Assembly (NCBI RefSeq): GCF_001701045.1
Contig: NZ_CP016757.1
Span: 637,501-701,500 of the forward strand
Length of the DNA: 64,000 nt
Source: Cloacibacillus porcorum
GTDB lineage: Bacteria; Synergistota; Synergistia; Synergistales; Synergistaceae
Reading direction: 5' to 3'
In this document: one piece after another, positions 2,881-41,006 of the stretch
How positions within the stretch are numbered: the stretch's first letter is position 1
Layout: each line of letters starts with the position of its first letter
The notes under the pieces: generated by a model
Database searches by the model: none
Seen by the model: only the letters and a program-made list of their open reading frames with translations
What the model was told of the DNA's origin: nothing
Made by a program: the position numbers and the translations under genes

Positions 2881-3038
2881 TTTAAGTTCCTTCCAAGCAT
2901 TTATTTAAAAACTTCTATCCATTCTTATAATAATGGAATGCTGTATATACTATTCCATAAACCCTGCTTTGGCAAGCCCTTTTTACAATATTGTGTGAAA
3001 ATAAATGGAATGATTTTGGTATTATAATTTACATATAG

Positions 3039-3067
3039 TTGACATTTAGCTCATCGCACAATATAGT
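3039..3067 (+). promoter_or_regulatory. Sigma-70-type promoter for the umuC-like gene
   Basis: TTGACA (3039-3044), a 17-nt spacer and TATAGT (3062-3067) make a near-consensus promoter about 35 nt before the start codon. I did not see an obvious LexA-type palindrome over it, so damage control cannot be inferred. Confidence 0.7.
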
Positions 3068-3101
3068 ATATTATAAGTTTTATAAAGGGAGCTGATGTTA
3101 C

Positions 3102-4427
3102 GTGTGTGTACTTGCTTCGCGCTCTGTCGGGCTCTGTGACTGTAATAATTTTTTTGTCTCTTGCGAGCGGCGGGAAGATCCGGCGCTCGTATCGCGCCCT
3201 GTTGTCGTCCTTAGCGGCAATGACGGATGCGTTGTGGCTCGTTCCAATGAGGTAAAGGCTATGGGGGTGCCGATGGGCGAGCCGTATTTCAAGGTCAGAG
3301 GATTGCTGGAACGCGCCGGTGTCGTGGTGCTGAGCGGCCGCCTTTCCCTTTATAATAAAATTTCCTCCGAGGTGATGTCGCGTATCGCAAGATTCAGCGA
3401 TGTGACGGAAGTCTACTCGATAGACGAGGCGTTTATAAATCTTGCGATATCTTCCGTTAAGGATCCCGTCGCCTATTGCCGGGAGCTGCGGGCGGATGTA
3501 TGGAGGCATTGTTCCATACCGGTCTCGGTTGGTATCTCTTCTACCAAGACGCTGGCAAAGCTGGCCTCTCACTGCGCCAAGCATAAGGATGAAGGGGTTT
3601 TCTGGCTTAAACGGGAGCTCTATTCCGACCCCGGATGGATGGCACAGTTTGAGGTCGGCGATATCTGGGGTGTCGGCAGGCGTATGGCTAAGCGTCTTAA
3701 TCTTTATCACCGTATTTTGAATGCCGCCGACTTTGCCGCGGCGGACGACCTGCTTCTTAAAAGGGCTTTTTCTGTGAATGCCCTCTATACGGCCTGGGAG
3801 CTGCGCGGCTATCCGGTGCATCCCCTTTCGGGAGGACGGCGCGCACCAAAGTCTATCCAAGTCTCCCGTTCCTTTGGCGAGGCGGTCTTTTCTTATGACG
3901 AGCTGCTGGAAGCGGTCTCTTATTTCACTCTTTGCGCCGCGCGGCAGCTGCGCGAGGCGAGGCAGCGCGCGTCGCGTATGGGGATATATATAACGACGAG
4001 CCGCTTCCGCGAGGAAAATTTTTATGCGCGCGATGACGAACGTTCTTTCCCCTCTCCGCGTTCGCTGGACTGCGATTTTTTGTCGGCGGCGCGTGAAATG
4101 CTCGCGGGTATATATCAGGAGGGCTGTGCCTATAAGAAGGCGGGAGTGATTCTCTATGACTTCACCGACGTAAGCTGCGGAGTCCAGAGGCAGTTGTTTG
4201 ACGAGGATGGACGCTCGGAGGCGCGGGAGGGGAGGTTCATGCAGGCAGCTTCCGTGACAGACTCGTTGAACCGCGAGTTCGGACGCCTTGTAATCGGCTC
4301 AGCCGATAATTTCGGCGCTCCTAAGAGGCCGTCCAAATGGTATCCGCAGCGAGGGCACGGCGCCGCCGGTGATTATCGGGAGCGTCCAGCGCTGCCGATA
4401 GGCCCGGCACGTAAGGTCAGTTTTTGA
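3102..4427 (+). CDS. umuC: Y-family DNA polymerase, UmuC-like
   Basis: A 441-residue translesion polymerase of the UmuC type, similar in length to Escherichia coli UmuC (about 422). Palm residues are visible: the first metal Asp in GLCDCNNFFVSCE (about residue 13) and the second pair in VYSIDEAF (Asp108, Glu109). A helix-hairpin-helix region (IWGVGRRMAKRL) and a little-finger domain follow. The start is GTG with a ggag site about 10 nt upstream. No umuD-like gene is adjacent, so the partner is elsewhere or dispensable. The role would be error-prone bypass of DNA lesions. The gene stands alone with its own promoter and a downstream terminator. Confidence 0.88.
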   Translation: MCVLASRSVGLCDCNNFFVSCERREDPALVSRPVVVLSGNDGCVVARSNEVKAMGVPMGEPYFKVRGLLERAGVVVLSGRLSLYNKISSEVMSRIARFSDVTEVYSIDEAFINLAISSVKDPVAYCRELRADVWRHCSIPVSVGISSTKTLAKLASHCAKHKDEGVFWLKRELYSDPGWMAQFEVGDIWGVGRRMAKRLNLYHRILNAADFAAADDLLLKRAFSVNALYTAWELRGYPVHPLSGGRRAPKSIQVSRSFGEAVFSYDELLEAVSYFTLCAARQLREARQRASRMGIYITTSRFREENFYARDDERSFPSPRSLDCDFLSAAREMLAGIYQEGCAYKKAGVILYDFTDVSCGVQRQLFDEDGRSEAREGRFMQAASVTDSLNREFGRLVIGSADNFGAPKRPSKWYPQRGHGAAGDYRERPALPIGPARKVSF

Positions 4428-4502
4428 CTGTGGATGAGGCGCCCATATCGCCGCGGTCAAAAACTGTCAGCGCTGCGGGCGGGATTTGGGCCGCATACAG
4501 AC

Positions 4503-4550
4503 AGCGGGGCAGGAATCGAAATTCCCGCCCCGCTTAGTTGTTTTTATTTA
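4503..4550 (+). terminator. Intrinsic terminator after umuC
   Basis: Arms agcggggcaggaat and attcccgccccgct (one mismatch) enclose a cgaa tetraloop, followed by tagttgttttta. It lies between two convergent genes, umuC and rubrerythrin, and could serve both. Confidence 0.75.
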
Positions 4551-4592
4551 TCCGGCGTCAGTTTGTATCTGTATTTTGCCGGTATCTGTTTT

Positions 4593-5081
4593 CTAGAACT
4601 TCTTGAAAATCGAGGGTTTCGCGCCGCAGATGGGGCAGGGGCTGCTGGTCTCGCCCTTGTGGATGAATCCGCAGATGGGGCAGAGGTAGTAGTCGGCGTC
4701 GGTGTTGCTCATATCCGAGAGCGCCTCTTTGTAAAGCTTCGCGTGCACCTTCTCGGCCTCGTTGGCATAGTGGAAGATACGGGCGGCCTCTGTGTTGCCT
4801 TCAGCCTTTGCCTGTTCGATCATCGGGGGGTACATCTCTGAGAATTCGTAGGTCTCTCCGTCGATACCGGCCTGGAGGTTATCAGCGGTGGTGCCGACTC
4901 CGCCCTTGGCTCTGAACTCAGCGAAGGCGTGAATGGTCTCCGCCGCCGCGGTGGCGCGGAAAAGCTTGGCTACGCCGGCGAATCCGTCTTTCTCCGCCTG
5001 TTCGGCGAACATAAGGTACTTACGGTTGGCCTGTGATTCTCCAGCAAATGCGGTTGCGAAATTTTCCTGTGTCGTTGACAT
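4593..5081 (-). CDS. Rubrerythrin
   Basis: A 162-residue rubrerythrin. It has an N-terminal four-helix diiron domain (NFATAFAGESQANRKY with Glu15, AETIHAF with Glu48 and His51, later NEAEKVHAKLY) and a C-terminal rubredoxin-like domain with CPIC (134-137) and CPIC (149-152). The enzyme reduces hydrogen peroxide with electrons from NAD(P)H via rubredoxin-type donors and protects anaerobes from oxygen. The length is slightly below the classical 191 residues because the two cysteine pairs are closely spaced. It is a single gene with its own strong promoter at 5165-5193 and a purine-rich ribosome site (gaggaaatc) before the start. Confidence 0.93.
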   Translation of the reverse strand: MSTTQENFATAFAGESQANRKYLMFAEQAEKDGFAGVAKLFRATAAAETIHAFAEFRAKGGVGTTADNLQAGIDGETYEFSEMYPPMIEQAKAEGNTEAARIFHYANEAEKVHAKLYKEALSDMSNTDADYYLCPICGFIHKGETSSPCPICGAKPSIFKKF

Positions 5082-8011: not shown

Positions 8012-8620
8012 TTATTTTTTGATTGGCTGCCGCCATTTACCTTCGAAGACGAAGCCGTCCAGCGGCAGGCGTTCGCGCTTGTCAAGCTCGCGGTCTCTGA
8101 GCTCGCCCTCAAGCAGCTCCGGTTCTCCCACGTAACCTACGGCGACGGCGACCAGCGGTTCGTAGTCTTCGGGCACGCCGTAAGTTTCGCGTACGGCGTC
8201 CGTGGAGAATCCCGCCATCGGGTGTCCCTGCAGGCCCTGCGCGGCGGCTTCAAGCAGAAGGTTTTCCAGCGCGAGCCCGCAGTCATGCATGGCCCAGCGG
8301 TTAGGCTTACCGTTGTAGTCGAATTTATTTTTTACTACGAGGATGATAAGCATCTGCGCCCTCTTTGCCCATACCTGATTGGATTTTGCGAGGCAGGAGA
8401 GCATCTTCTCAAATTCCTGCGGGTCGCTCTTGGAGGCTGTGATGAAGCGCCAAGGCTGTTCGTTGAAGGCGGAGGGGGCCCAGCGCGCCGCTTCGAAGAG
8501 GGATAGTATCTTTTCCGGTTCGAGGTTTTTGTCCGAGAAGGCGCGCGGGCTCCAGCGCTCGGCGATGAGTTCGGTTATTTTATGGTCTGCTGCCGCTTTT
8601 TTGTCGATCATTTTGTCCAC
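8012..8620 (-). CDS. Nitroreductase-family FMN protein
   Basis: A 202-residue nitroreductase-fold flavoprotein. FMN-contact motifs are visible: RWSPRAFSDKNL near the N-terminus, the phosphate/ring segment ARWAPSAFNEQPWRF (about 46-60), and the C-terminal GYVGEPE. Such enzymes reduce nitro compounds, quinones or flavins with NAD(P)H; the physiological substrate cannot be read from the sequence. It is a single gene with hairpins on both sides. Confidence 0.9.
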   Translation of the reverse strand: MDKMIDKKAAADHKITELIAERWSPRAFSDKNLEPEKILSLFEAARWAPSAFNEQPWRFITASKSDPQEFEKMLSCLAKSNQVWAKRAQMLIILVVKNKFDYNGKPNRWAMHDCGLALENLLLEAAAQGLQGHPMAGFSTDAVRETYGVPEDYEPLVAVAVGYVGEPELLEGELRDRELDKRERLPLDGFVFEGKWRQPIKK

Positions 8621-8759
8621 CCCTATAAGTGATATTTATATATAAACTTATTATAACGGTAAGGTTACAGAGTTAAGGCCGGCGGCGAAAGCGTAAAAAC
8701 CACAGTTTAATTAAAAAAGCAGTGGATTTATTTAAAAGTATGTAAAATTACCTGCTATA

Positions 8760-8800
8760 AAAACCCCGGCCTTAGCAACGGGCCGGGGCAGTTTTTTTAT
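8760..8800 (-). terminator. Terminator of the cstA-like gene
   Basis: Read leftward, ccccggccc-gttgcta-aggccgggg is a strong GC stem followed by ttttta. It lies 26-60 nt after the stop of the leftward cstA-like gene. Confidence 0.85.
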
Positions 8801-8825
8801 ATCGTTATCGCGGATGCTTTACTGC

Positions 8826-10298
8826 TTATTCAGCGGCGTTGGTGCGGACGCACTTGAACCAGAAGATTGCGAAGCAGAGCGCGGCAAAGGCGATACCGAC
8901 TGGATAACCGACCTTGGCGGCCGCGTCGATCGCCGCCGCTCCTGTGAGGGGCTCGCCGGAGACCATTTTTGAGATCATCGGGCCGAAACCTTCGGGGGCG
9001 ACAAGGATATATGTGCTTGAAACCGCCGACATGAAGGTCGCCGGTATCGCGAGCGGCCAGAAGTTGTGGTGTACCTTGCAGAGGAACACCGCGGCCGCCC
9101 AGAGGGCGATCATCGCGAGGGTCTGGTTCGACCATGAGAAGTAGCGCCAGATGACCTGGAAGTTCATGTTTGAAAGCAGCGCGCCGCAGAGAAGAAGCGG
9201 GACGGAGAGCAGCAGACGCTTCGTGCGCGGCTTCTGGTCGATGCCGAACCAGTCGGCAAGGGTGAGACGCGCGGAGCGGAAGGCGGTGTCGCCGGATGTT
9301 ATCGGGCAGACGATGACGCCGATCATCGCGAGCACGCCGCCCACGGGGCCGAGCACCCTGATGCAGATGTCATAGACGAGCGCCGACTGCCCGGCGAGGC
9401 TGGTCGTCGCGTCCCAAAGTCCCTGTGTGCCGTTGTAAACGCTGACGCCGGCCGCGGCCCATATCAGCGCGATGACGCCTTCGGCGACCATCGCTCCGTA
9501 GAATACCTTGCGTCCCTGATATTCACTCGTTATGCAGCGCGCCATCATCGGCGACTGCGTCGCGTGGAAGCCCGAAATCGCTCCGCAGGCGACGGTGATA
9601 AACATCAGCGGCCATATCGGAAGCGCGCGCGGATGGAGGTTGGCAAAGCTGTTCCACATCTCCGGCAGCTCATACCCCTGTACCACGAGGCCGCCGCCGA
9701 CGCCCACGCACATGACGATCAGCGCCGCGCCAAAGAAGGGATAGAAGCGCCCTATTATCTTGTCTATCGGCAGGAGCGTAGCGAGGAAGTAGTAGACAAG
9801 AATTATTGCCAGCCAGAAGGTGACGTTGAGCGATTTTGGCGTAAGGAGCGCCAGAAGTCCGGCGGGGCCCGTCGAGAAGGTGGTTCCGACGAGCACGAGC
9901 AGCACCACCGCAAAGATACGCATGACCGTCTTCATCTGCGGGCCGAGGTAGATGCCGACTATTTCGGAGATGCTCGCGCCGTTATGGCGCTCCGAGAGCA
10001 TACCTGAGAAATAGTCGTGCACGCCGCCGGCGAAAATCGTACCGAAGACAATCCAGAAATAGACGACCGGTCCCCAGAGAGCGCCGGAGAGGGCGCCGAA
10101 GATAGGTCCCAATCCCGCGATGTTCAGCAGCTGGATGAGGAAGGACTTCCATATGGGGAGCGGCAGATAGTCGACGCCGTCCGGATGGGCGATGGCGGGC
10201 GTCTCTCTGTCGTCAGGAGGCAGAAGCCTTTCCACAACGACCGAATATGTCAAAAACCCTACAACCAACGTTAAAAGCGCAATAAAAAACGTCAGCAT
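8826..10298 (-). CDS. cstA: CstA-family carbon-starvation carrier (pyruvate/peptide transporter)
   Basis: A 490-residue polytopic membrane protein of the CstA family, with many hydrophobic helices throughout. The N-terminal DDRETPAIAHPDGVDYLPLP and the segments FAGGVHDYFSGMLSERHNG, GFHATQSPMMARCI and VICPITSGDTAFRSARLTLAD are typical CstA signatures. It is shorter than E. coli CstA (701), as in many anaerobes. E. coli members import pyruvate or act in peptide use; which applies here is unknown. It is transcribed alone from a near-consensus promoter (10348-10376) into the terminator at 8760-8800. Confidence 0.9.
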   Translation of the reverse strand: MLTFFIALLTLVVGFLTYSVVVERLLPPDDRETPAIAHPDGVDYLPLPIWKSFLIQLLNIAGLGPIFGALSGALWGPVVYFWIVFGTIFAGGVHDYFSGMLSERHNGASISEIVGIYLGPQMKTVMRIFAVVLLVLVGTTFSTGPAGLLALLTPKSLNVTFWLAIILVYYFLATLLPIDKIIGRFYPFFGAALIVMCVGVGGGLVVQGYELPEMWNSFANLHPRALPIWPLMFITVACGAISGFHATQSPMMARCITSEYQGRKVFYGAMVAEGVIALIWAAAGVSVYNGTQGLWDATTSLAGQSALVYDICIRVLGPVGGVLAMIGVIVCPITSGDTAFRSARLTLADWFGIDQKPRTKRLLLSVPLLLCGALLSNMNFQVIWRYFSWSNQTLAMIALWAAAVFLCKVHHNFWPLAIPATFMSAVSSTYILVAPEGFGPMISKMVSGEPLTGAAAIDAAAKVGYPVGIAFAALCFAIFWFKCVRTNAAE

Positions 10299-10347
10299 AA
10301 AAAAACCACCTCTCTAAGAGTTAATAAAAGATACTCTATCTTGTGAA

Positions 10348-10376
10348 AATATAGCACTGCGGCTGACAACGGTCAA
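10348..10376 (-). promoter_or_regulatory. Promoter of the cstA-like gene
   Basis: On the minus strand, TTGACC (10371-10376), a 17-nt spacer and TATATT (10348-10353) lie about 50 nt before the start codon. Confidence 0.65.
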
Positions 10377-10483
10377 GAAAGAGAGTTATCCATTTTTAGG
10401 TATATTTTATTGCCAAATGCAGTATAGTATTATAATTTTAATGTAGATTTATCTATAATACCTTATTTTATTAAGAACAGAAA

Positions 10484-10517
10484 TCATTAAAAAAGAGCCT
10501 TTCGCGCAGAAAGGCTC
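10484..10517 (-). terminator. Terminator of the yfcC-like gene
   Basis: A perfect 9-pair stem (gagcctttc/gaaaggctc, loop gcgca) is followed on the minus strand by ttttttaat. It directly follows the stop codon of the leftward carrier gene. Confidence 0.88.
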
Positions 10518-10542
10518 CCGGCAGCAGAGCTGCGTTTTATTT

Positions 10543-12048
10543 TTAATTAAATCCGACAACGACGGCGGCGATTACGAAGAGAGAACCGCAGAGGAAGAGG
10601 ATGCCCTGGAACTTTATCTGCCATTTCGCCCAGGTGGCCCAGTCGATGCGGGCGGCGCCGATCGAGGCCATCATGACCGCCGAGGTCGGGACGATGAGGT
10701 TTGTAAAGCCGTCGCCGAGCTGGAAGGCGAGCACCGCCACCTGGCGCGTTACGCCGGCGATATCCGCGAGCGGCGCCATCAGAGGCATCGTCAGCGCCGC
10801 CTGTCCGGAACCGGAGACGACGAAGAAGTTGAATACCGACTGGAAGAGATACATCAGCCAGGCAGAGATCACCGGCGAGAGCCCGGAGATCATCAGTCCG
10901 ACGTTGTGGAGCACCGTGTTGAGCACCGTCGGCTCCGTCGGCGAATCTCCGCCGAGTACAAGGATGATGCCCTTTGCCATGCCGACGACGATTGCCGCGC
11001 CGAGGAGGTCGGAGGCCCCCGCTCTGAAGGAGACGGCGATATCGTTGACCTTCATACCGTTGAGTTTGAATATAACGCCGATGATGCCTGAGACGAGGCC
11101 CATGACGAAAAACTGCGAAGCTATCTCCGGAATATAGTATCCTTTTTCGACGACGCCCCAGATGGTCCAGACCATGCCGAGCGCGATCGTGAGAATCACG
11201 AGAATGTCGCCGAGGCCGAACCTCTCGTCCGTCTCGCCCGCAGCTTCGAGCTCTTCGCGGAAATAGTTGTCGGACTCACGGACCGGTGAAAGAGAGGGAT
11301 TTTTGCGTATCTTCACGGCGTAGCGCCAGGTGTAGAGCGTGCCGAGCAGGGTAAAAAAGAACCACATAAAGATGCGGAAGCCGGAGCCGGAGAGCACCGG
11401 TATCTGCGCGATGCCCTGCGCGATCGCGACGCTGAAGGGGTTCATCCACGAAGCGCCGAAGCCGATCTGCGTCGCGCAGTAGGTGATCATCACGGCCACT
11501 ATCGAGTCGTAACCGAGCGCGATCACAACGGGAACGACGATAAAGACGAAGGGGATTGCCTCCTCTCCCATGCCGAAGACGGCCCCGCCGAGGGAGAAAA
11601 GAAAGAAAAGCACGGGTATTATCAGCGTATCCATGCCCTTTGTCTTTTTTATCATGCGCTTCATGCCCGATTCGATCGCGCCGGTTCGGAGGACGATGCC
11701 GAAGGCTCCGCCGACGATGAGGATGAAGGCGACGACGCCGACGGCCGATCCCCACTTGTCTCCCGAGACGAGTCCCTCAAAGGCATAGTTGAGGATGCCC
11801 GTTTCGCCGTAGGGTTCGAAGAGCTTTACGCCGTTCATTACCGGCTTGCCGTCTTTGCCGAGCTCATACTGGAACGACTCCGGTACGAGCACGCTGCGGC
11901 TCTTCTCGGAGCTGCCCATAGTATATGTTATCTCGTGGGTCTCAAACTTTCCGACCGGTACGGTCCATGTCAAAAGCGCGGCGAAGAGAACGACAAAAAA
12001 GATGATAATGTAGGTATCCGGTATCCACCGTGTCCTGTTTTGTGCCAT
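10543..12048 (-). CDS. yfcC: YfcC-family membrane carrier (putative peptide, amino-acid or dicarboxylate transporter)
   Basis: A 501-residue integral membrane protein of the YfcC/DcuC-like superfamily. It has an N-terminal helix, an extracytoplasmic loop with TWTVPVGKFETHEI, and then 11-12 helices. Family segments include FSLGGAVFGMGEEAIPF and QIGFGASWMNPFSVAIAQG, and the repeat-like FNFFVVSGSGQAALTMPLM near the end. The substrate is not established. The divergent neighbour is isoaspartyl dipeptidase, separated by only 104 nt with a palindrome, so it could import isoaspartyl peptides or export their products. That link is inference from position. Confidence 0.82.
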   Translation of the reverse strand: MAQNRTRWIPDTYIIIFFVVLFAALLTWTVPVGKFETHEITYTMGSSEKSRSVLVPESFQYELGKDGKPVMNGVKLFEPYGETGILNYAFEGLVSGDKWGSAVGVVAFILIVGGAFGIVLRTGAIESGMKRMIKKTKGMDTLIIPVLFFLFSLGGAVFGMGEEAIPFVFIVVPVVIALGYDSIVAVMITYCATQIGFGASWMNPFSVAIAQGIAQIPVLSGSGFRIFMWFFFTLLGTLYTWRYAVKIRKNPSLSPVRESDNYFREELEAAGETDERFGLGDILVILTIALGMVWTIWGVVEKGYYIPEIASQFFVMGLVSGIIGVIFKLNGMKVNDIAVSFRAGASDLLGAAIVVGMAKGIILVLGGDSPTEPTVLNTVLHNVGLMISGLSPVISAWLMYLFQSVFNFFVVSGSGQAALTMPLMAPLADIAGVTRQVAVLAFQLGDGFTNLIVPTSAVMMASIGAARIDWATWAKWQIKFQGILFLCGSLFVIAAVVVGFN

Positions 12049-12071
12049 GATTAAAATTCCTCCATTGTGAT

Positions 12072-12095
12072 ATGTGATATTTTTAAATATCTCAT
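12072..12095. promoter_or_regulatory. Palindrome in the yfcC-iadA divergent region, candidate operator
   Basis: The sequence atg-t-gatattt-tt-aaatatc-t-cat is a 24-nt inverted repeat with one mismatched pair, centred between the two divergent genes. It is placed where one regulator could control both. No regulator gene is adjacent. Confidence 0.45.
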
Positions 12096-12152
12096 GTAAA
12101 GTGATCTTTTATATTATATAATAAAAACAAAAAAGCAAAAGAGGCATGAAAA

Positions 12153-13322
12153 ATGTTTATACTTATAAAAAACGCAGACATTTATGCTCCTGAACCGCTC
12201 GGCATCTCTTCCCTGTTGATATCCCACGACAAAATCGCCTGGCTCGGTAAAAATTTTCCCGCCGAGGCGACCTTGCCAGACTTGGAAATAATCGACGCCG
12301 CGGGGAAAATCCTCATCCCCGGCATCGTAGACGGCCATGTGCACGTCATCGGCGGCGGAGGCGAGGGCGGTTTTGCTACGCGTACGTCCGAACTCGTCCT
12401 CTCCGATATGGTAAAGGGCGGCGTGACGACGGTCGTCGGTCTGCTTGGCACCGACGACGTGACGCGCAGCACGGGAGCCCTCATCGCAAAGACGAACGCG
12501 ATACGCGCCGAGGGCATGAGCGCCTGGGCGATGACCGGCTCCTACCAGCTGCCGGTCAAGAGCCTCTGCGGCGGTGTCCGCGACGATATCGCGCTGCTCG
12601 AACCGGTCATCGGCGTCGGCGAGGTGGCCCTCTCCGACCACCGCTCATCGCAGCCCACCTTTGAGGAGTTTATGCGGCTTGCGGCGGCGGCGCGCGTCGG
12701 CGGGATGCTCTCCGGCAAGGCGGGAGTCGTAAACGTGCACCTCGGGGACGCGCCTTCGGGGCTGGATTACCTCTTCCGCGCCGCCGAGACGGAGATACCG
12801 CCGTCGCAGTTCATTCCCACACATATGAACCGCAATCCAGAACTCTTCAAAGAGGCCTGCCGCTACGGCGCGATGGGCGGCTATGTAGACCTCACGACGA
12901 GCACGACGCCGCAGTTCCTTGAAGAGGGCGAGGTCGAGTGCGGCCGCGCGCTCGCCGAGCTGCTGGCGGCGGGCGTCCCCGCGGAGCGCATCTCATTCTC
13001 ATCCGACGGGCAGGGCTCGATGCCCGCCTTCGACGCGGCGGGAAACCTCACCGGGCTCACCATCGGACGCGTCACCTCTATCTTTGAGACCATGCGCAGT
13101 ACGGTGAAGAACTATGACCTCCCCCTTGAGACCATGGTGCGCGTCGTCTCGACGACTGCCGCCGACCACTGTAAGCTGCCGGGCAAGGGGCATATAAAAG
13201 AGGGATATGACGCGGATCTGATCCTGTTGGAGGCCGACGGCCTCGGCCTTAATACGCTCTTCGCGCGCGGCAGAAAGATGATGTCCGGCGGCAGGCCGCT
13301 AGTTAAGGGAACCTTTGAATAA
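12153..13322 (+). CDS. iadA: Beta-aspartyl (isoaspartyl) dipeptidase
   Basis: A 389-residue amidohydrolase matching IadA over its whole length (E. coli enzyme 390). Metal ligands are visible: GHVH (His62, His64), His195 in VNVHLGD, His223 in PTHMNRN and Asp284 in SSDGQGS. The bridging ligand, a carboxylated Lys in E. coli (VKCAISDHRS), is Glu157 here (GEVALSDHRS). A natural carboxylate in this place should still bridge the two zinc ions. The enzyme hydrolyses isoaspartyl dipeptides from damaged proteins. The start is supported by gaggcatgaaaa just upstream. The next gene begins 16 nt after the stop codon. Confidence 0.92.
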   Translation: MFILIKNADIYAPEPLGISSLLISHDKIAWLGKNFPAEATLPDLEIIDAAGKILIPGIVDGHVHVIGGGGEGGFATRTSELVLSDMVKGGVTTVVGLLGTDDVTRSTGALIAKTNAIRAEGMSAWAMTGSYQLPVKSLCGGVRDDIALLEPVIGVGEVALSDHRSSQPTFEEFMRLAAAARVGGMLSGKAGVVNVHLGDAPSGLDYLFRAAETEIPPSQFIPTHMNRNPELFKEACRYGAMGGYVDLTTSTTPQFLEEGEVECGRALAELLAAGVPAERISFSSDGQGSMPAFDAAGNLTGLTIGRVTSIFETMRSTVKNYDLPLETMVRVVSTTAADHCKLPGKGHIKEGYDADLILLEADGLGLNTLFARGRKMMSGGRPLVKGTFE

Positions 13323-13338
13323 CAGGAGGTACGAAACA

Positions 13339-14118
13339 ATGAAAGATAATACAGTTATCATAAAGAAAGAGGGACCTGTCGCCTGGGTGACGATGAACAG
13401 GCCGGAGTCGCTCAATTCCCTCACCGTGGGGCTGTGCGCCGCGCTCAAGGCGGCGTTTGCGGATTGCGAGGATGACAACGACATCCGCGTCGTTGTGCTC
13501 AGCGGCGAGGGAAAGGCCTTCTGCGCCGGCGGCGACCTGCGCACGATATTAGAGCTGTCAGATTATGAGGCGGCGCGCGAATACGTACACGCCGCGGGGG
13601 AGATAACGGCGGCGGTCATGCGCTCCCGGAAACCCTTTATTGCGATGGTCGGCGGCGCGGCGGCCGGAGCCGGTTTTAATATCGCGCTTGCCTGTGACTT
13701 TGTCTGCGCCTCAAAGAGGGCGAAGTTTACCCAGGCCTTCTCCTCCATCGGACTCATATCCGACTGCGGCGGCAATCTGCTGCTGCCGCGCCTTGTGAGC
13801 CCACAGACCGCGAAAATGCTGATGATGCTGCCGGAGACGCTCTCCGCGGAGGAGGCGCAGGCGCTGGGGCTGCTGACGGCGCTTGCCGAAGAGGGAGAGC
13901 TGCGCGAAGATACCGCCGCCCTCGCCGTGCGCCTCGCGAAACAGCCGCCGCTGGCGCTCGCGCAGACCAAAAAACTGCTGAACGGCGGTAAAGAGCTGGA
14001 AGATATCCTTCGCGCCGAAGAAGACATCCAGGCCGCCCTGATAATCGGCGAAGACTGCAAAGAGGGTGTAAGAGCCTTCTTTGAAAAGAGGCGGCCGGAG
14101 TTTAAGGGACGGAGCTAG
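13339..14118 (+). CDS. Enoyl-CoA hydratase/isomerase family protein
   Basis: A 259-residue crotonase-fold protein. Signatures are VTMNRPESLNSLT, the first oxyanion-hole segment GKAFCAGGDLR and the second region MVGGAAAGAGFNIALACDFVCAS. The acidic residue typical of hydratases at the third position after the second GAGF block is not clearly present, so isomerase, hydratase or another crotonase chemistry is open. The ATG at 13339 is chosen over an upstream in-frame ATG (13315) because aggaggt lies 9 nt before it and the upstream start would overlap iadA. It is probably co-transcribed with iadA, although the functional link is unclear. Confidence 0.85.
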   Translation: MKDNTVIIKKEGPVAWVTMNRPESLNSLTVGLCAALKAAFADCEDDNDIRVVVLSGEGKAFCAGGDLRTILELSDYEAAREYVHAAGEITAAVMRSRKPFIAMVGGAAAGAGFNIALACDFVCASKRAKFTQAFSSIGLISDCGGNLLLPRLVSPQTAKMLMMLPETLSAEEAQALGLLTALAEEGELREDTAALAVRLAKQPPLALAQTKKLLNGGKELEDILRAEEDIQAALIIGEDCKEGVRAFFEKRRPEFKGRS

Positions 14119-14247
14119 GTTTGCGGGCGGCTCGGTATGAGATGAAGGCGGTGCTGCTGTTCCGTAGTTTTCTTATGATAAAAATATTAAATCATTCTAA
14201 TCTTTCATAGGCTGTTTTGCCGATAGGTTCAATAATTAAACTTCTTT

Positions 14248-14297
14248 AGGCTATTCTGAATTATTACTTTTGTAATATTACAGAATAGCCTTTTCTA
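14248..14297 (+). terminator. Terminator after the iadA/enoyl-CoA hydratase transcript
   Basis: The 11-pair perfect stem aggctattctg/cagaatagcct contains a further AT-rich inner helix and ends in ttttct. It separates this transcript from cluster A. Confidence 0.8.
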
Positions 14298-14386
14298 TAT
14301 TATACAAAAATAGATAAGACCTTCTGAAGTTATCTTCCATATATAAGAATATTCGAAAATGAATTACTAATGTGCGTTGTGCTACG

Positions 14387-14415
14387 TTGACAGCCTCGTG
14401 TATTGATGCTAGTAT
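14387..14415 (+). promoter_or_regulatory. Promoter of cluster A
   Basis: TTGACA (14387-14392), a 17-nt spacer and TAGTAT (14410-14415) lie about 155 nt before the first TRAP gene. IclR-type control by the last gene of the cluster is plausible but no operator was identified. Confidence 0.65.
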
Positions 14416-14570
14416 TTTTATTATCAAAATACGAAATTTATTCCGTATAGTGAGAAAATAAGGTGGTGATTAGAGGAAAGAGAACGTTAGAGTATTATTT
14501 TTATCTTGCAGGATGGGGGAGCGTCGTCAGTATTTTTAATGAGAGCACGTAGATGTTTAGGAGGGTAAAA

Positions 14571-15554
14571 ATGAAAAAAAGTGTTTTTATGTTTTGCTGC
14601 GCTTTGTGCATAGCATTTTGGGGAATCACCGCGAACCAGGCCGAGGCGGTGATGAAGCTTCAGCTGGCGCACGAACAGCCGGAAATACATCCTTATCACA
14701 TCGGCGCGGTGGAATTTGCCAAATTAGTCAAAGAATATTCCAAGGGCGAAATGGAAGTTACAATCTTTTCCAACGGAACGATGGGAAAGGCATCCGCGTT
14801 GGCGGAGAGCTGCTCGATGGGCACAATGGATTTCGCGTCCGTGTTTTCGATCATCCTCGAGGCCTATTCGCCGAAGTTCGGCGTTTTGACAATGCCGTAT
14901 TGTTTCAGGGATTGGGATCATTCAGACAAAGTTCTTGACGGGCCGATCGGCGACGAATTAAAAGCCTCTGTGGAGTCTAAGGGGATAAAGGTGTTGGCGT
15001 TTTGGAGGAACGGTCTTGCCGAGGTACATTCAAGAATGCCGATACGCACGCCCGAAGATATCAAGGGGAAAAAACTTAGAATCCAGGAAGGTCCCAGCTA
15101 TGCGGCTCTGAGCAAAGCGCTTGGCACAGTCACGACGCCGATGTCGTTCGGCGAGGTCTATTCAGCGCTGCAGTTGGGGACGGTAGACGCTCAAACTCAG
15201 ACGATAAATAATATTTATGCCTCTAAAATGTTTGAAGTGGGCAAGTATTTTACGAAAATCAACATGAACTTCAACACACAGCCTTTCATAATGAGCATGC
15301 AGCTATGGAAGTCGCTTACCCCGGAACAGCAGGATATAATCGAGCGCGCGGCGCTTGGCGCGACAAAGGCGGAGAGAGCCTATCACGTGAAAGATACCCA
15401 AACATCGTATGATGGCTTCGTCAAAGGCGGCGGCAAGGTGATAGAACTCAATAAGGCTGAGCTCGAAAAATGGAAAGATGTCTGCGCCCCGGTATATAAG
15501 GACCCGCAGTTTTCCGCTGTTATGGAGATCTTCAATAGAATACAAAAGCAGTGA
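14571..15554 (+). CDS. dctP: TRAP transporter solute-binding protein, DctP type
   Basis: A 327-residue periplasmic binding protein. A signal peptide ends near ANQAEA (about 26). The body follows the DctP pattern: LQLAHEQPEIHPYHIGAVEFAKLVKEYS, the ligand-carboxylate region NGLAEVHSRMPIRTPEDIKGKKLRI with its conserved Arg, and the dimer/hinge stretch VTTPMSFGEVYSALQLGTVDAQ. Such proteins deliver carboxylates to the membrane pair. The ATG at 14571 is chosen over an upstream alternative for its aggaggg site. It heads cluster A, and the ligand is probably the organic acid degraded by the enzymes downstream. Confidence 0.92.
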   Translation: MKKSVFMFCCALCIAFWGITANQAEAVMKLQLAHEQPEIHPYHIGAVEFAKLVKEYSKGEMEVTIFSNGTMGKASALAESCSMGTMDFASVFSIILEAYSPKFGVLTMPYCFRDWDHSDKVLDGPIGDELKASVESKGIKVLAFWRNGLAEVHSRMPIRTPEDIKGKKLRIQEGPSYAALSKALGTVTTPMSFGEVYSALQLGTVDAQTQTINNIYASKMFEVGKYFTKINMNFNTQPFIMSMQLWKSLTPEQQDIIERAALGATKAERAYHVKDTQTSYDGFVKGGGKVIELNKAELEKWKDVCAPVYKDPQFSAVMEIFNRIQKQ

Positions 15555-38031: not shown

Positions 38032-38077
38032 AAGAGGCCCCGACATCTTAGTAACGTAAAGATGCCGGGGCCTCTTA
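38032..38077 (+). terminator. Terminator hairpin of cluster C
   Basis: Arms aagaggccccgacatctt and aagatgccggggcctctt pair over 18 positions with one mismatch. It lies about 20 nt after the aminotransferase stop codon. The T run is short. Confidence 0.65.
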
Positions 38078-38161: not shown

Positions 38162-38719
38162 TTACAACCCCTCCAGCCTCTCGTAATCCTTTGAAGTTAT
38201 CATTGCCGCTTCGGCGGAGTTTTCGATGAGCAGGGCGATTATTTCATCGGTGCGGTGTGTCATCGCCTTTTTGTGGATCTTTTTGAGCAGCGCGGCGGGG
38301 GCGCGTTCGGCTATTTCACAGCCCGCTTCGCCGGTCTTCGAGTGCCACTTTGAGTATAGCTCCACGAGCCACTTGGCCTCGGGCGAGATGTCGCGGAAGG
38401 CGGCCATGCCGGTTTTTTCATTTGGTACGGACTCTATTTCGACGCCGCTTTGGGTGCAGCGGACCATGAAGTCGCGGAATACCTCGTCCATCGTCAGCGC
38501 AAGCAGCGTCTCCGGCCTGTCGAGTGAACGGGCGAAATCCGACTCCATGAATTTCTGCGCGAAGTCCCAGATATCGAGACGGCGGCGGCAGGCGGCGGTG
38601 AAGACCGCTTCGAGATATTCGCGGTGGATCTGCTCAAGCGTCTTTTTAGCGAGTTCGGCGCTGCGTTTTTTCGCCTCCGGTCCGTAGTCGTTGTATATTG
38701 CAAAGGTTGATTTCAGCAT
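38162..38719 (-). CDS. Helical protein of unknown function, third gene of the AAA+/VirD4-like operon
   Basis: A 185-residue, mostly charged and helical protein with no signal peptide or membrane segment. I recognise no family. It contains a long amphipathic stretch (YGPEAKKRSAELAKKTLEQIHREYLEA), a middle section rich in Phe/Arg, and a basic region LLKKIHKKAMTHRTDEI. It starts 5 nt after the AAA+ gene on the same strand, so it is certainly co-transcribed with it. A role as adaptor, substrate-recruiting subunit or structural partner of the ATPase is inference from the operon. Confidence 0.7.
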   Translation of the reverse strand: MLKSTFAIYNDYGPEAKKRSAELAKKTLEQIHREYLEAVFTAACRRRLDIWDFAQKFMESDFARSLDRPETLLALTMDEVFRDFMVRCTQSGVEIESVPNEKTGMAAFRDISPEAKWLVELYSKWHSKTGEAGCEIAERAPAALLKKIHKKAMTHRTDEIIALLIENSAEAAMITSKDYERLEGL

Positions 38720-38724
38720 GGCGT

Positions 38725-39543
38725 CTAGTCTCTTTCCCGATAGCCGTCCATCTTGAGGGTGGCGGCGCGTCTTGCGTCTTCTTCCGTGATTTTTTCGGCA
38801 TATTCTTCGGGCGGCAGGTTTATCTGCGCCGCGGAGACCTCGTAGTGGAGCAGTTCGAGCGAACGCGCCGGTTCGGAACGTTCCGGCGCGCAGAGCGCGG
38901 CGAGCCTCGCCGTCTCCGCGATCGCCTCTTTGGTGATGTCGGTCCGCGGGTAACGCACGCGCGCCACGCGTTCAAGTATCTCCAGCAGCCGCCCGTGGTC
39001 CGGCTCCTTCAGCTCTACGGACTGGAAGCGGCGCTCCATCGCGCGGTCGCGGGCGATATAGAGCCGGAACTCTTCGGAGGTCGTCGAGATGAGCATGCTG
39101 AGCCCGCCGCTGGTGATGTATGGTTTCAGCGTGTTGAGCAGGTTCGAGGGGCCGGAGTTTTCGCTTAGGCGGTGGGCCTCGTCGACGTAGATGATGATGT
39201 TGTAGTATTCGGCCTCGTCAAGGATGTGCTTGAAGCGGAGGTCTCTCTTTTTGCGGTCCTGGTTTATCAGGTCGATGTTGAGTTCGACGACGCGCCGTCC
39301 CGCGAGCCGCCGGTAGCGGCCCTCTTCGATGAGCGCCGCGAGCTTGCGTACGGTCGTCGTCTTGCCGCAGCCGGCGGGGCCGGTGAGCGCGACATTGTTC
39401 TGCTCTTCGGAGGCGAGGGCGACGGCGATGCGGTCCAGCGCGGCGTAATCTTCCAGTATCTGATCGACGCCGCTGGTTTGCCCGTTAAGTTCACGCCCGT
39501 ATTTCGCGCAGAGCGGCGGTAATTTCCCCTTCATAAGGCTCAA
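38725..39543 (-). CDS. Single AAA+ ATPase related to the ClpA/ClpB D1 module
   Basis: A 272-residue soluble ATPase. Walker A is GPAGCGKTTT (55-64), Walker B IIYVDEAH (117-124), sensor 1 lies in ISTTSEEF (152-159), and the arginine finger is RAMERRF (168-173). The block STTSEEFRLYIARDRAMERRF and the lid that follows closely follow the Hsp100/Clp D1 domain, but there is no N-domain, middle domain or second AAA domain. It thus looks like a lone D1 unit that would form a ring working on protein or a complex. The start overlaps the upstream VirD4-like gene by 4 nt (ATGA), showing coupled translation. Confidence 0.82.
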   Translation of the reverse strand: MSLMKGKLPPLCAKYGRELNGQTSGVDQILEDYAALDRIAVALASEEQNNVALTGPAGCGKTTTVRKLAALIEEGRYRRLAGRRVVELNIDLINQDRKKRDLRFKHILDEAEYYNIIIYVDEAHRLSENSGPSNLLNTLKPYITSGGLSMLISTTSEEFRLYIARDRAMERRFQSVELKEPDHGRLLEILERVARVRYPRTDITKEAIAETARLAALCAPERSEPARSLELLHYEVSAAQINLPPEEYAEKITEEDARRAATLKMDGYRERD

Positions 39544-41006
39544 AGCGTCTCCCCCTCTTCAAGAAGCGAGGCGAGCGTCAGTTTCTCATGGCGCTCAGCC
39601 CCCTCGGCGATCCAAAGTTTTGCCGCGCGGCGCGCGCGGCGCAGCTTCACACGCCGTTTGACGGGAGCGGGGCGGGGCTGTTCTTCGAGGGCGGCGTAGG
39701 TCACGCGCCCCTCTTTTTCCACGGCGCGTATCTCTTCGTTGAGATCCTCCGGTCTGTAGATGACGTCGGCGGCGGAGACGTAGGTGCCGAAGGCGCGGTT
39801 CAGCCGCTCCTCTTCGCTTGCGTGCCAGATGCGCTGGGTGCTCGCGGAATAGAGCGTTTCCAGCAGCTGGCCGTCCTCCGTCCTGCTTTCGAGCGACAGG
39901 CGCGAGAAGTTGTCGTAGCCGAAGGTGAAGCTGAGACGGTCCCAGCTCTGGCGGAATTTATCAAGGTAATTAAGGAGTCCCCAGCGGTCCAGCTCTGGGA
40001 TGAGTATCACGGCGGAGCTCTTTGTGTTTTGCGCCGCCGCGCCGATCGCGGCGATCAGGAGCGGCGCGAAGCCGCGGTCCGCCGAGGCGCTGCCGCTGGA
40101 GCAGACGAAGAGCGGCCGTCCCTGCGGCGCGCTGAGGTATTCGCCGAGCTTTAGGGTGTTCAGGCTGCGGAAGAGTCCCGCGCCGCGTCTCATCAGGGTT
40201 ATCAGCGCGCGGAAGTCCGCCGTGCTTGCGTCGGCCTGCATCTTGATGCAGCGCTGGGTGTTGGTGTTGTCCCCGTTTGTGGAGAGCAGATCGGCGAAGG
40301 GCAGGGGCGCGTCGCGGTCGCCGTTTTTCTGGAAGCGCAGCTCATGTTCGAGGATATACCTTGCGAGGGCAAACTCCCTGGTTATAAAGGCGCTGGCTGC
40401 CTCCGCCTCTTTGAGCCGGTATTTTACGGGAAGTATCCCCGTCTCGCCGCCGATCGTCTTGGTCATCAATGTTTCGATGAAGCGGTGCTGGCGGCAGAAT
40501 ATCTGGAACAGGTTCAGCGACGGCAGGGTGCCGATCACGCCCTCCTCTCCCTCGGCTCCGGCGCAGGCCGTGAGGTTGTGGACGACGTTTTTCGCCGTCT
40601 CCAGCATGTAGAGAAGCATTCTGTCGGTGACGAGTTTGCCGAGGTCGTCGAAAAATTTATCGTTGGCGTCGCGGGATTTTATCTCCTGATAGACCGCCTG
40701 GCGTATGACGTAGGCGATATTTTCGCTGCCCACTCCGATATCTTCGTTGGCGATGAAGGGTTCGATGAGGTCTGGAATGAGGGACCCCTCACTTGAGAGG
40801 TCGGCCAGCAGCGCCTCCCGCGCGAAACTCTCGTAGAGCCGCCCTTTATGGTCCAGCACGATGAGCGCGCGGTCGGGAAAGGACTCCGGCCACGTCTCTA
40901 TGATCCTGCCGATGCTGGCGTTTTTCCGTTCGCTGTTACCGAGCAGGAGCGTGTCCTCCCCGCATATCAGCCCGGCGCTGAAATCTTCGATCTCCACCAT
41001 GATCAT
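39540..41006 (-). CDS. VirD4/TraG-like protein with degenerate nucleotide-binding motifs
   Basis: A 488-residue protein whose plan follows VirD4/TraG coupling ATPases without membrane helices. It has a P-loop position (EDTLLLGNSERKNAS, 17-31), then the strand ALIVLDHKGRLYESFAR (47-63), an all-alpha-like insert with IAYVIRQAVYQEI and FFDDLGKLVTDRM, then AVILIPELDRWG (332-343) at the Walker B place, and RLSFTFGYDNFSRL. The P-loop lacks GKS/T and Walker B has Pro-Glu instead of Asp-Glu, so ATP hydrolysis is unlikely. The C-terminus is basic (PVKRRVKLRRARRAAK). The similarity is by eye and moderate. It is the first gene of a three-gene operon with an active-looking AAA+ ATPase. Confidence 0.55.
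   Translation of the reverse strand: MIMVEIEDFSAGLICGEDTLLLGNSERKNASIGRIIETWPESFPDRALIVLDHKGRLYESFAREALLADLSSEGSLIPDLIEPFIANEDIGVGSENIAYVIRQAVYQEIKSRDANDKFFDDLGKLVTDRMLLYMLETAKNVVHNLTACAGAEGEEGVIGTLPSLNLFQIFCRQHRFIETLMTKTIGGETGILPVKYRLKEAEAASAFITREFALARYILEHELRFQKNGDRDAPLPFADLLSTNGDNTNTQRCIKMQADASTADFRALITLMRRGAGLFRSLNTLKLGEYLSAPQGRPLFVCSSGSASADRGFAPLLIAAIGAAAQNTKSSAVILIPELDRWGLLNYLDKFRQSWDRLSFTFGYDNFSRLSLESRTEDGQLLETLYSASTQRIWHASEEERLNRAFGTYVSAADVIYRPEDLNEEIRAVEKEGRVTYAALEEQPRPAPVKRRVKLRRARRAAKLWIAEGAERHEKLTLASLLEEGETL

Follow-up and report, generated by a model that had tools for sequence, protein, structure and literature searches.

A conserved three-gene operon of Synergistota encoding a predicted VirD4/TrwB-fold pseudo-ATPase, a lone Clp-type AAA+ ATPase and a helical protein

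In a Synergistota genome, three adjoining genes encode a predicted VirD4/TrwB-fold protein without an ATPase site of its own (P1), a lone AAA+ ATPase of Clp type with its catalytic motifs intact (P2) and a helical protein (P3). With moderate confidence, we read this trio as one ATP-driven protein-remodelling or regulated-assembly complex, which arose from a Clp protease unfoldase that became partnered with a dead VirD4-fold protein. An initial annotation of the same DNA had suggested that an inactive coupling-protein-like scaffold may work with an active remodelling ring; we infer the same pairing and keep it as the best reading, but move it towards protein handling of Clp descent.

The window, by which we mean the whole 64-kb stretch of DNA that was analysed, sits in a 3.59-Mb single-contig genome. 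P1, P2 and P3 are coupled minus-strand genes at 38162-41006, with open reading frames and coordinates rechecked:

39540..41006, minus strand: P1, predicted pseudo-VirD4/TrwB-fold protein, 488 aa as annotated; Walker A and the Walker B Asp are lost and there is no membrane helix
38725..39543, minus strand: P2, lone ClpA/ClpC-type D1 AAA+ ATPase, 272 aa; its catalytic motifs are intact and its pore loop 1 lacks the aromatic residue
38162..38719, minus strand: P3, all-helical protein (from its model), 185 aa; without a known family or PDB fold match
38032..38076, no strand: 18-bp inverted repeat, 94% complementary with a 9-nt loop, between P3 and a convergent aminotransferase gene

The tight coupling noted initially was borne out: P1 and P2 overlap by 4 nt (TTGA), the TTG start of P2 overlapping the P1 stop, and P2 and P3 are separated by a 5-nt gap. 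The P1 protein likely starts at the ATG at 41000, the third annotated codon, which would give 486 aa, because the orthologues share this Met as their start, with a GGAG about 7 nt ahead of it. The inverted repeat (MFE -34.5 kcal/mol, z -7.4) is probably a two-way terminator that closes the P1-P2-P3 operon. An Rfam search of the trio region was empty or returned chance-level matches.

We searched for P1 in 188 genomes of Synergistota. P1 was present in ten, all of one family and at 60-100% identity, and every one of these ten holds the complete trio in the constant order P1-P2-P3; P3 occurs in exactly the same ten genomes and never alone. Measured against three relatives, dN/dS was 0.11-0.16 for P1, 0.07-0.12 for P2 and 0.10-0.22 for P3, similar to the 0.08-0.16 of the adjoining peptidase and metallo-beta-lactamase-fold genes. 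Values this low indicate maintained genes under purifying selection rather than decaying fragments, and together with the constant order they argue that the arrangement is not due to chance. The trio is thus found intact, and not only as decayed pieces of a known integrative element, one of two outcomes that the initial annotation had named as fatal to its proposal; the other, a P1 that aligns to no VirD4/FtsK fold, was not seen either. Members of the window's clade have the trio on the chromosome, with the same peptidase gene alongside it in several genera and with neighbours that are partly conserved. In one congener (L025, genome G137, 11120-15456), two transposase-like genes and an ATPase-like gene separate an intact trio from its usual metallo-beta-lactamase-fold neighbour.

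Apart from these ten trios, distant relatives of P1 and P2 were found at three places: genome G166 has a second copy, and single copies occur in G027 and in G039, two genomes from another family of the order. A wider set of 392 genomes, about half of them outside Synergistota, added no member; as this search was limited, restriction of the trio to Synergistota is provisional. No P1 homologue was detected when P1 was compared with phage records or its relatives with plasmids, and a P1 profile scan of the viral_contigs set gave no match. A weak plasmid match in the search with P1 relatives (E 0.6) proved to be a true VirD4 and not a P1 homologue, and AAA matches in plasmids and fecal 'phage' scaffolds were rejected as ordinary Clp/TssH proteins. 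We found no description of a VirD4-Clp system among open-licence papers, in keeping with the view that the operon is both conserved and undescribed.

P1 had been described as a degenerate VirD4-type protein, and here predicted structure was more telling than sequence search. Against Pfam, NCBIfam, PHROGs, PADLOC and PDB sequences, P1 gave no match of weight, and among 11 P1 members no VirD4-type Pfam family was found, the sole match being DUF4122 at a chance-level E of 0.078. The AlphaFold2 model, built with six orthologues, has low overall confidence (pLDDT 53, pTM 0.52) and is best in parts of the RecA-like core. When this model was searched against the PDB with Foldseek, ranks 1-10 were all TrwB, followed by Cag-beta and then by HerA and VirB4 (best matches TrwB 1e9s, E 1.5e-6, and Cag-beta 8dol, E 1.5e-4). 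The P1 profile also aligned collinearly, end to end over 372 columns, with a profile of four active soluble TrwB-like proteins; this comparison reached a probability of 78% (E 2e-6) globally and was weak locally (21%, E 1e-3), the AAA and P3 controls gave less than 0.5%, and a mixed conjugative set gave 2.4%.

In the same profile alignment, the P-loop position reads LLLGN-SERKNAS in P1 and LLLGGTGTGKTNL in the active TrwB-like proteins, and the Walker B position reads ILIPEL instead of LIADEL, so that PE replaces DE. The GK[ST] motif is missing from every member, namely the P1 proteins of the window's clade and the P1-like proteins of L023, G039 and G027, including relatives that are only about 20% identical, and the Walker B DE is likewise lost throughout. 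No membrane helix was detected (maximum Kyte-Doolittle 19-residue mean 1.22). P1 is predicted to be a VirD4/TrwB-fold pseudo-ATPase, as first proposed; this is an assignment of fold, based mainly on the model, and not a claim of family membership.

P2 was confirmed as an AAA+ protein reduced to D1. Its Walker A (GPAGCGKT), Walker B (IIIYVDEAH), sensor-1 TT and ERRF arginine finger are all intact, and the catalytic residues are kept in all members, including relatives that are 33-37% identical. The protein spans D1 and its small subdomain only, and the N-domain, M-domain and D2 are absent. Its best NCBIfam matches were TssH, ClpA and ClpB, all over D1 (TssH/ClpV 4.3e-26 vs ClpA 1.2e-25), and its PDB matches were ClpC and ClpB, again over D1. 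By homology to the D1 of ClpA and ClpC, P2 would assemble as a hexameric ring powered by its own Walker and arginine-finger sites. Pore loop 1 of this ring is altered: it reads INQDRK---KRDLRF, with a three-residue gap and no aromatic residue, vs KYRGEF in ClpC. In Clp unfoldases, a loop of [ILV]GF type docks ClpP, and this loop is absent from the P2 of the window.

The third protein matches no family, as the initial reading had it. Its model is all-helical (pLDDT 81), the best match in a fold search against the PDB reached only E 0.18, and searches of Pfam, PHROGs and PDB sequences were empty or at chance level. We considered P3 as a split-off D2, as a Clp N-domain and as kin of the helix-turn-helix proteins beside the distant pairs, and detected no relation in any of these cases.

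At the three distant loci, a P1-like gene adjoins a Clp-type AAA gene:

L023 (G166:C4): P1-like gene at 10245-11651 and AAA gene at 8440-10155 (571 aa), near XRE, ImmA/IrrE and PIN-like genes and a tyrosine integrase
L050 (G027:C162): P1-like gene in two frames and AAA gene with D2 at 2993-4774
L024 (G039): P1-like gene with frameshifts, D1-only AAA gene at 8773-7943 and ClpP gene at 7953-7372, overlapping the AAA gene

The P1-like frame is interrupted at about 2119-2158 in L050 and at about 8800-10250 in L024, which may reflect an assembly indel, decay or recoding; the AAA frames of both loci are intact. In a tree of D1 domains, the AAA proteins of the distant loci and of the window's clade fall on one side and 15 ClpA/B/C/TssH domains on the other with support of 99/99, a grouping that joins long branches and to which long-branch attraction possibly contributes. 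Neighbour-gene proteins at L024:4559-7243 (894 aa, with a membrane segment) and at about 740-1480 of L050 share a 73-residue region that may contain a helix-turn-helix (hhalign probability 50%). At L023:4564-6056, the tyrosine integrase lies beside a stretch resembling a tRNA 3' end, which suggests an integrative element; a search for its second end found none.

Two of these loci carry the link to ClpP, one through a clpP neighbour (G039) and one through a statistically sound docking loop (L050). The D2 of L050 matches the D2 of ClpC (probability 99.5%, E 2e-22) and carries IGF in the alignment column that is LGF or VGF in ClpC and a gap in ClpB and TssH. The related VGF motif of ClpE is anchored on the H-site of ClpP (PMC13125188). 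This D2 has GKR at the end of its Walker A and DV in place of the Walker B DE; its ATPase site thus looks dead, although the docking loop is kept. The ClpP of G039 matches PF00574 at 2.4e-77, with the catalytic Ser, His and Asp present by inspection, and it is a paralogue, because the housekeeping clpP of that genome is located elsewhere. Two further candidate loops were not counted: an LGF at the same place in L023, seen by eye in an end-to-end alignment in which hhalign gave a probability of only 1.6%, and, in the G039 AAA protein, a VGF close to the tail, an end that overlaps the clpP start in an assembly with indels. The initial statement that no Clp protease is nearby accordingly holds for the window, though not for the family.

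The D2 of L050 also bears on the marginal lead of TssH/ClpV over ClpA among the NCBIfam scores, the one point in favour of reading P2 as an ATPase of ClpV/TssH type that disassembles a contractile or T6SS-like sheath. This reading is highly improbable: the relative's D2 is ClpC-like and has a ClpP loop that TssH lacks, and a VipB sheath gene occurs in only 2 of the 12 trio or relative genomes, the window's not among them.

Could the trio instead be an active Clp protease variant, in which P2, P1 and P3 still feed substrates to the housekeeping ClpP? The clpP paralogue beside the G039 AAA gene and the IGF loop of L050 would fit, as would the presence of ClpP elsewhere in the window's own genome. 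In the window's P2, however, D2, an IGF-type loop and the aromatic pore loop are all missing, and there is no clpP near the trio; we regard this variant as improbable. The loss of D2, docking loop and pore aromatic in the window's clade makes a non-proteolytic remodeller or ATP switch likelier than a threading protease.

The initial annotation had also listed a DNA-handling machine or a domesticated conjugation part. P1 would then bind DNA or relaxosome proteins with P2 as an unusual motor, and the trio would process or transport DNA. Such a role would suit the predicted type IV coupling-protein fold of P1, whose closest active cousins are TrwB-like. Set against this fold are the absence of a membrane helix from P1, a motor that belongs to the Clp family and has relatives carrying clpP or a ClpP loop, and the genomic setting: a PF02534 VirD4 gene is found in 0 of the 10 trio genomes vs 26 other Synergistota, and inspection of the trio flanks revealed neither a relaxase nor a pilus gene, as noted before. 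Since the trio genomes lack PF02534 and no recognisable conjugation gene lies beside the trio, DNA transfer is disfavoured, and we think it improbable. The clpP of G039 and the docking loop of L050 likewise favour Clp-derived protein handling over a DNA-handling or conjugation-derived machine.

Soluble VirD4/TrwB-like genes occur elsewhere in Synergistota in other company. At L092:6449-8345 (G067:C79), 4 nt separate a paralogous second ClpP gene from the gene behind it, which encodes a soluble VirD4-like ATPase (PF02534, 2.2e-27) whose P-loop is intact; this is a further VirD4-ClpP pairing in the phylum. L094:829-8019 (G064:C40) encodes a soluble TrwB-like ATPase (PF10412, 2e-44) along with two Hsp70-type proteins, one of which carries a fused vWA domain, and a 465-aa protein that has no match and is perhaps a second VirD4-like copy. 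At L093:22-7461 (G067:C6), a ubiquitin-like set of ThiF/E1, E2-like and two JAB proteins is accompanied by a TrwB-like ATPase, which shares 36% identity with the L094 one. A candidate for a second 'pseudo-VirD4', in L093/L094, seemed convincing by eye; it did not reach significance in profile comparison, and we did not use it. The proximity of such genes to ClpP, Hsp70-vWA and E1/E2/JAB suggests a wider, unexplored link of this fold to protein quality control.

The cousins with Hsp70-vWA or E1/E2/JAB genes also resemble NTP-dependent conflict systems, in some of which FtsK domains predicted to be inactive occur (PMC7159879), and so lend some weight to an anti-phage or mobile-element conflict system in which the ring and its dead scaffold would sense or remodel an invader protein. 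A patchy distribution (10/188) would agree with this, and the setting of the L023 relative, which adjoins a tyrosine integrase and XRE, ImmA/IrrE and PIN-like genes, lends a defence role some probability. PADLOC, however, recognised no system (nothing for P1, one chance-level match for P3 at E 0.034 and only generic AAA matches for P2), the trio evolves slowly in the manner of housekeeping genes, and in the window's clade it is chromosomal, with the same peptidase neighbour in several genera and no recognised defence neighbours. On balance, we consider a defence role unlikely, though the least unlikely of the alternatives.

Under the preferred reading of a Clp-derived remodelling or assembly complex, the ancestral pair would have consisted of a Clp unfoldase that kept D1 as its ATPase and a VirD4-fold protein whose own ATPase site was lost. 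P2 would be the sole ATPase of the complex. Type IV coupling proteins recruit clients, and by analogy P1 may serve the P2 ring as a scaffold or as a platform for clients without turning over ATP, with P3 as a helical adaptor specific to the window's clade. The ring of the relatives seems capable of cooperating with ClpP, either by way of an IGF loop on an eroded D2 or with a dedicated clpP alongside; the window's clade, in which P3 is present, would have lost this coupling. Several elements of this scheme are what we infer: that a complex forms, its stoichiometry, what P1 and P3 do in it, and that proteolysis has been lost.

To our knowledge, type IV coupling proteins and Clp unfoldases, both well-studied families of ring motors, are not known to work together. 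With less confidence than for the complex itself, we tentatively propose that the trio represents a new class of Clp machine: a single-ring Clp AAA+ protein would have a dead VirD4/TrwB-fold protein as its dedicated partner, and the conjugation-type coupling fold would be reused as the substrate gate of a complex for remodelling or proteolysis. Some lineages would have kept the ClpP link and others lost it. If this is true, the joining of a dead coupling-type protein to a Clp ring would be a new way of building a protein machine, and the trio would offer a simple system for asking what roles VirD4-type proteins have beyond ATP turnover.

The trio shares with the NTP-dependent conflict systems that contain MoxR-vWA, Hsp70 and inactive FtsK (Kaur et al., 2020; PMC7159879) a common theme of chaperone-type NTPases and inactive FtsK/HerA-class domains, but no vWA, MoxR, effector or Ubl gene lies at the trio, and only the P-loop fold is common to both. 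With the TrwB/TraD/VirD4 coupling proteins (PF10412, PF02534; PDB 1e9r, 8dol), P1 shares its predicted fold and a profile that runs collinearly from where the P-loop was lost, through the degenerate Walker B strand, and further on. Unlike them, it has no Walker A, Walker B Asp, membrane anchor or Pfam match, no relaxase or T4SS was recognised, and its partner is a Clp-type AAA+ protein; without these motifs, the anchor and the usual partners, the trio is not a type IV coupling protein system. P2 in turn shares with ClpA and ClpC (Hsp100) the D1 module with intact Walker A and B, sensor 1 and arginine finger, and one relative keeps a ClpC-type D2 and IGF loop. P2 of the window differs from them in lacking the N-domain, M-domain, D2 and pore-loop aromatic and in belonging to a separate clade (99/99), and the D2 of the relative is catalytically eroded; with no D2, N-domain or aromatic pore loop, P2 is not a complete Clp unfoldase. 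Finally, in ClpP systems with second ClpP paralogues, the window's locus, which has no clpP and whose P2 has no docking loop, does not find its counterpart, whereas its G039 relative does, since it likewise has an extra clpP overlapping the AAA gene.
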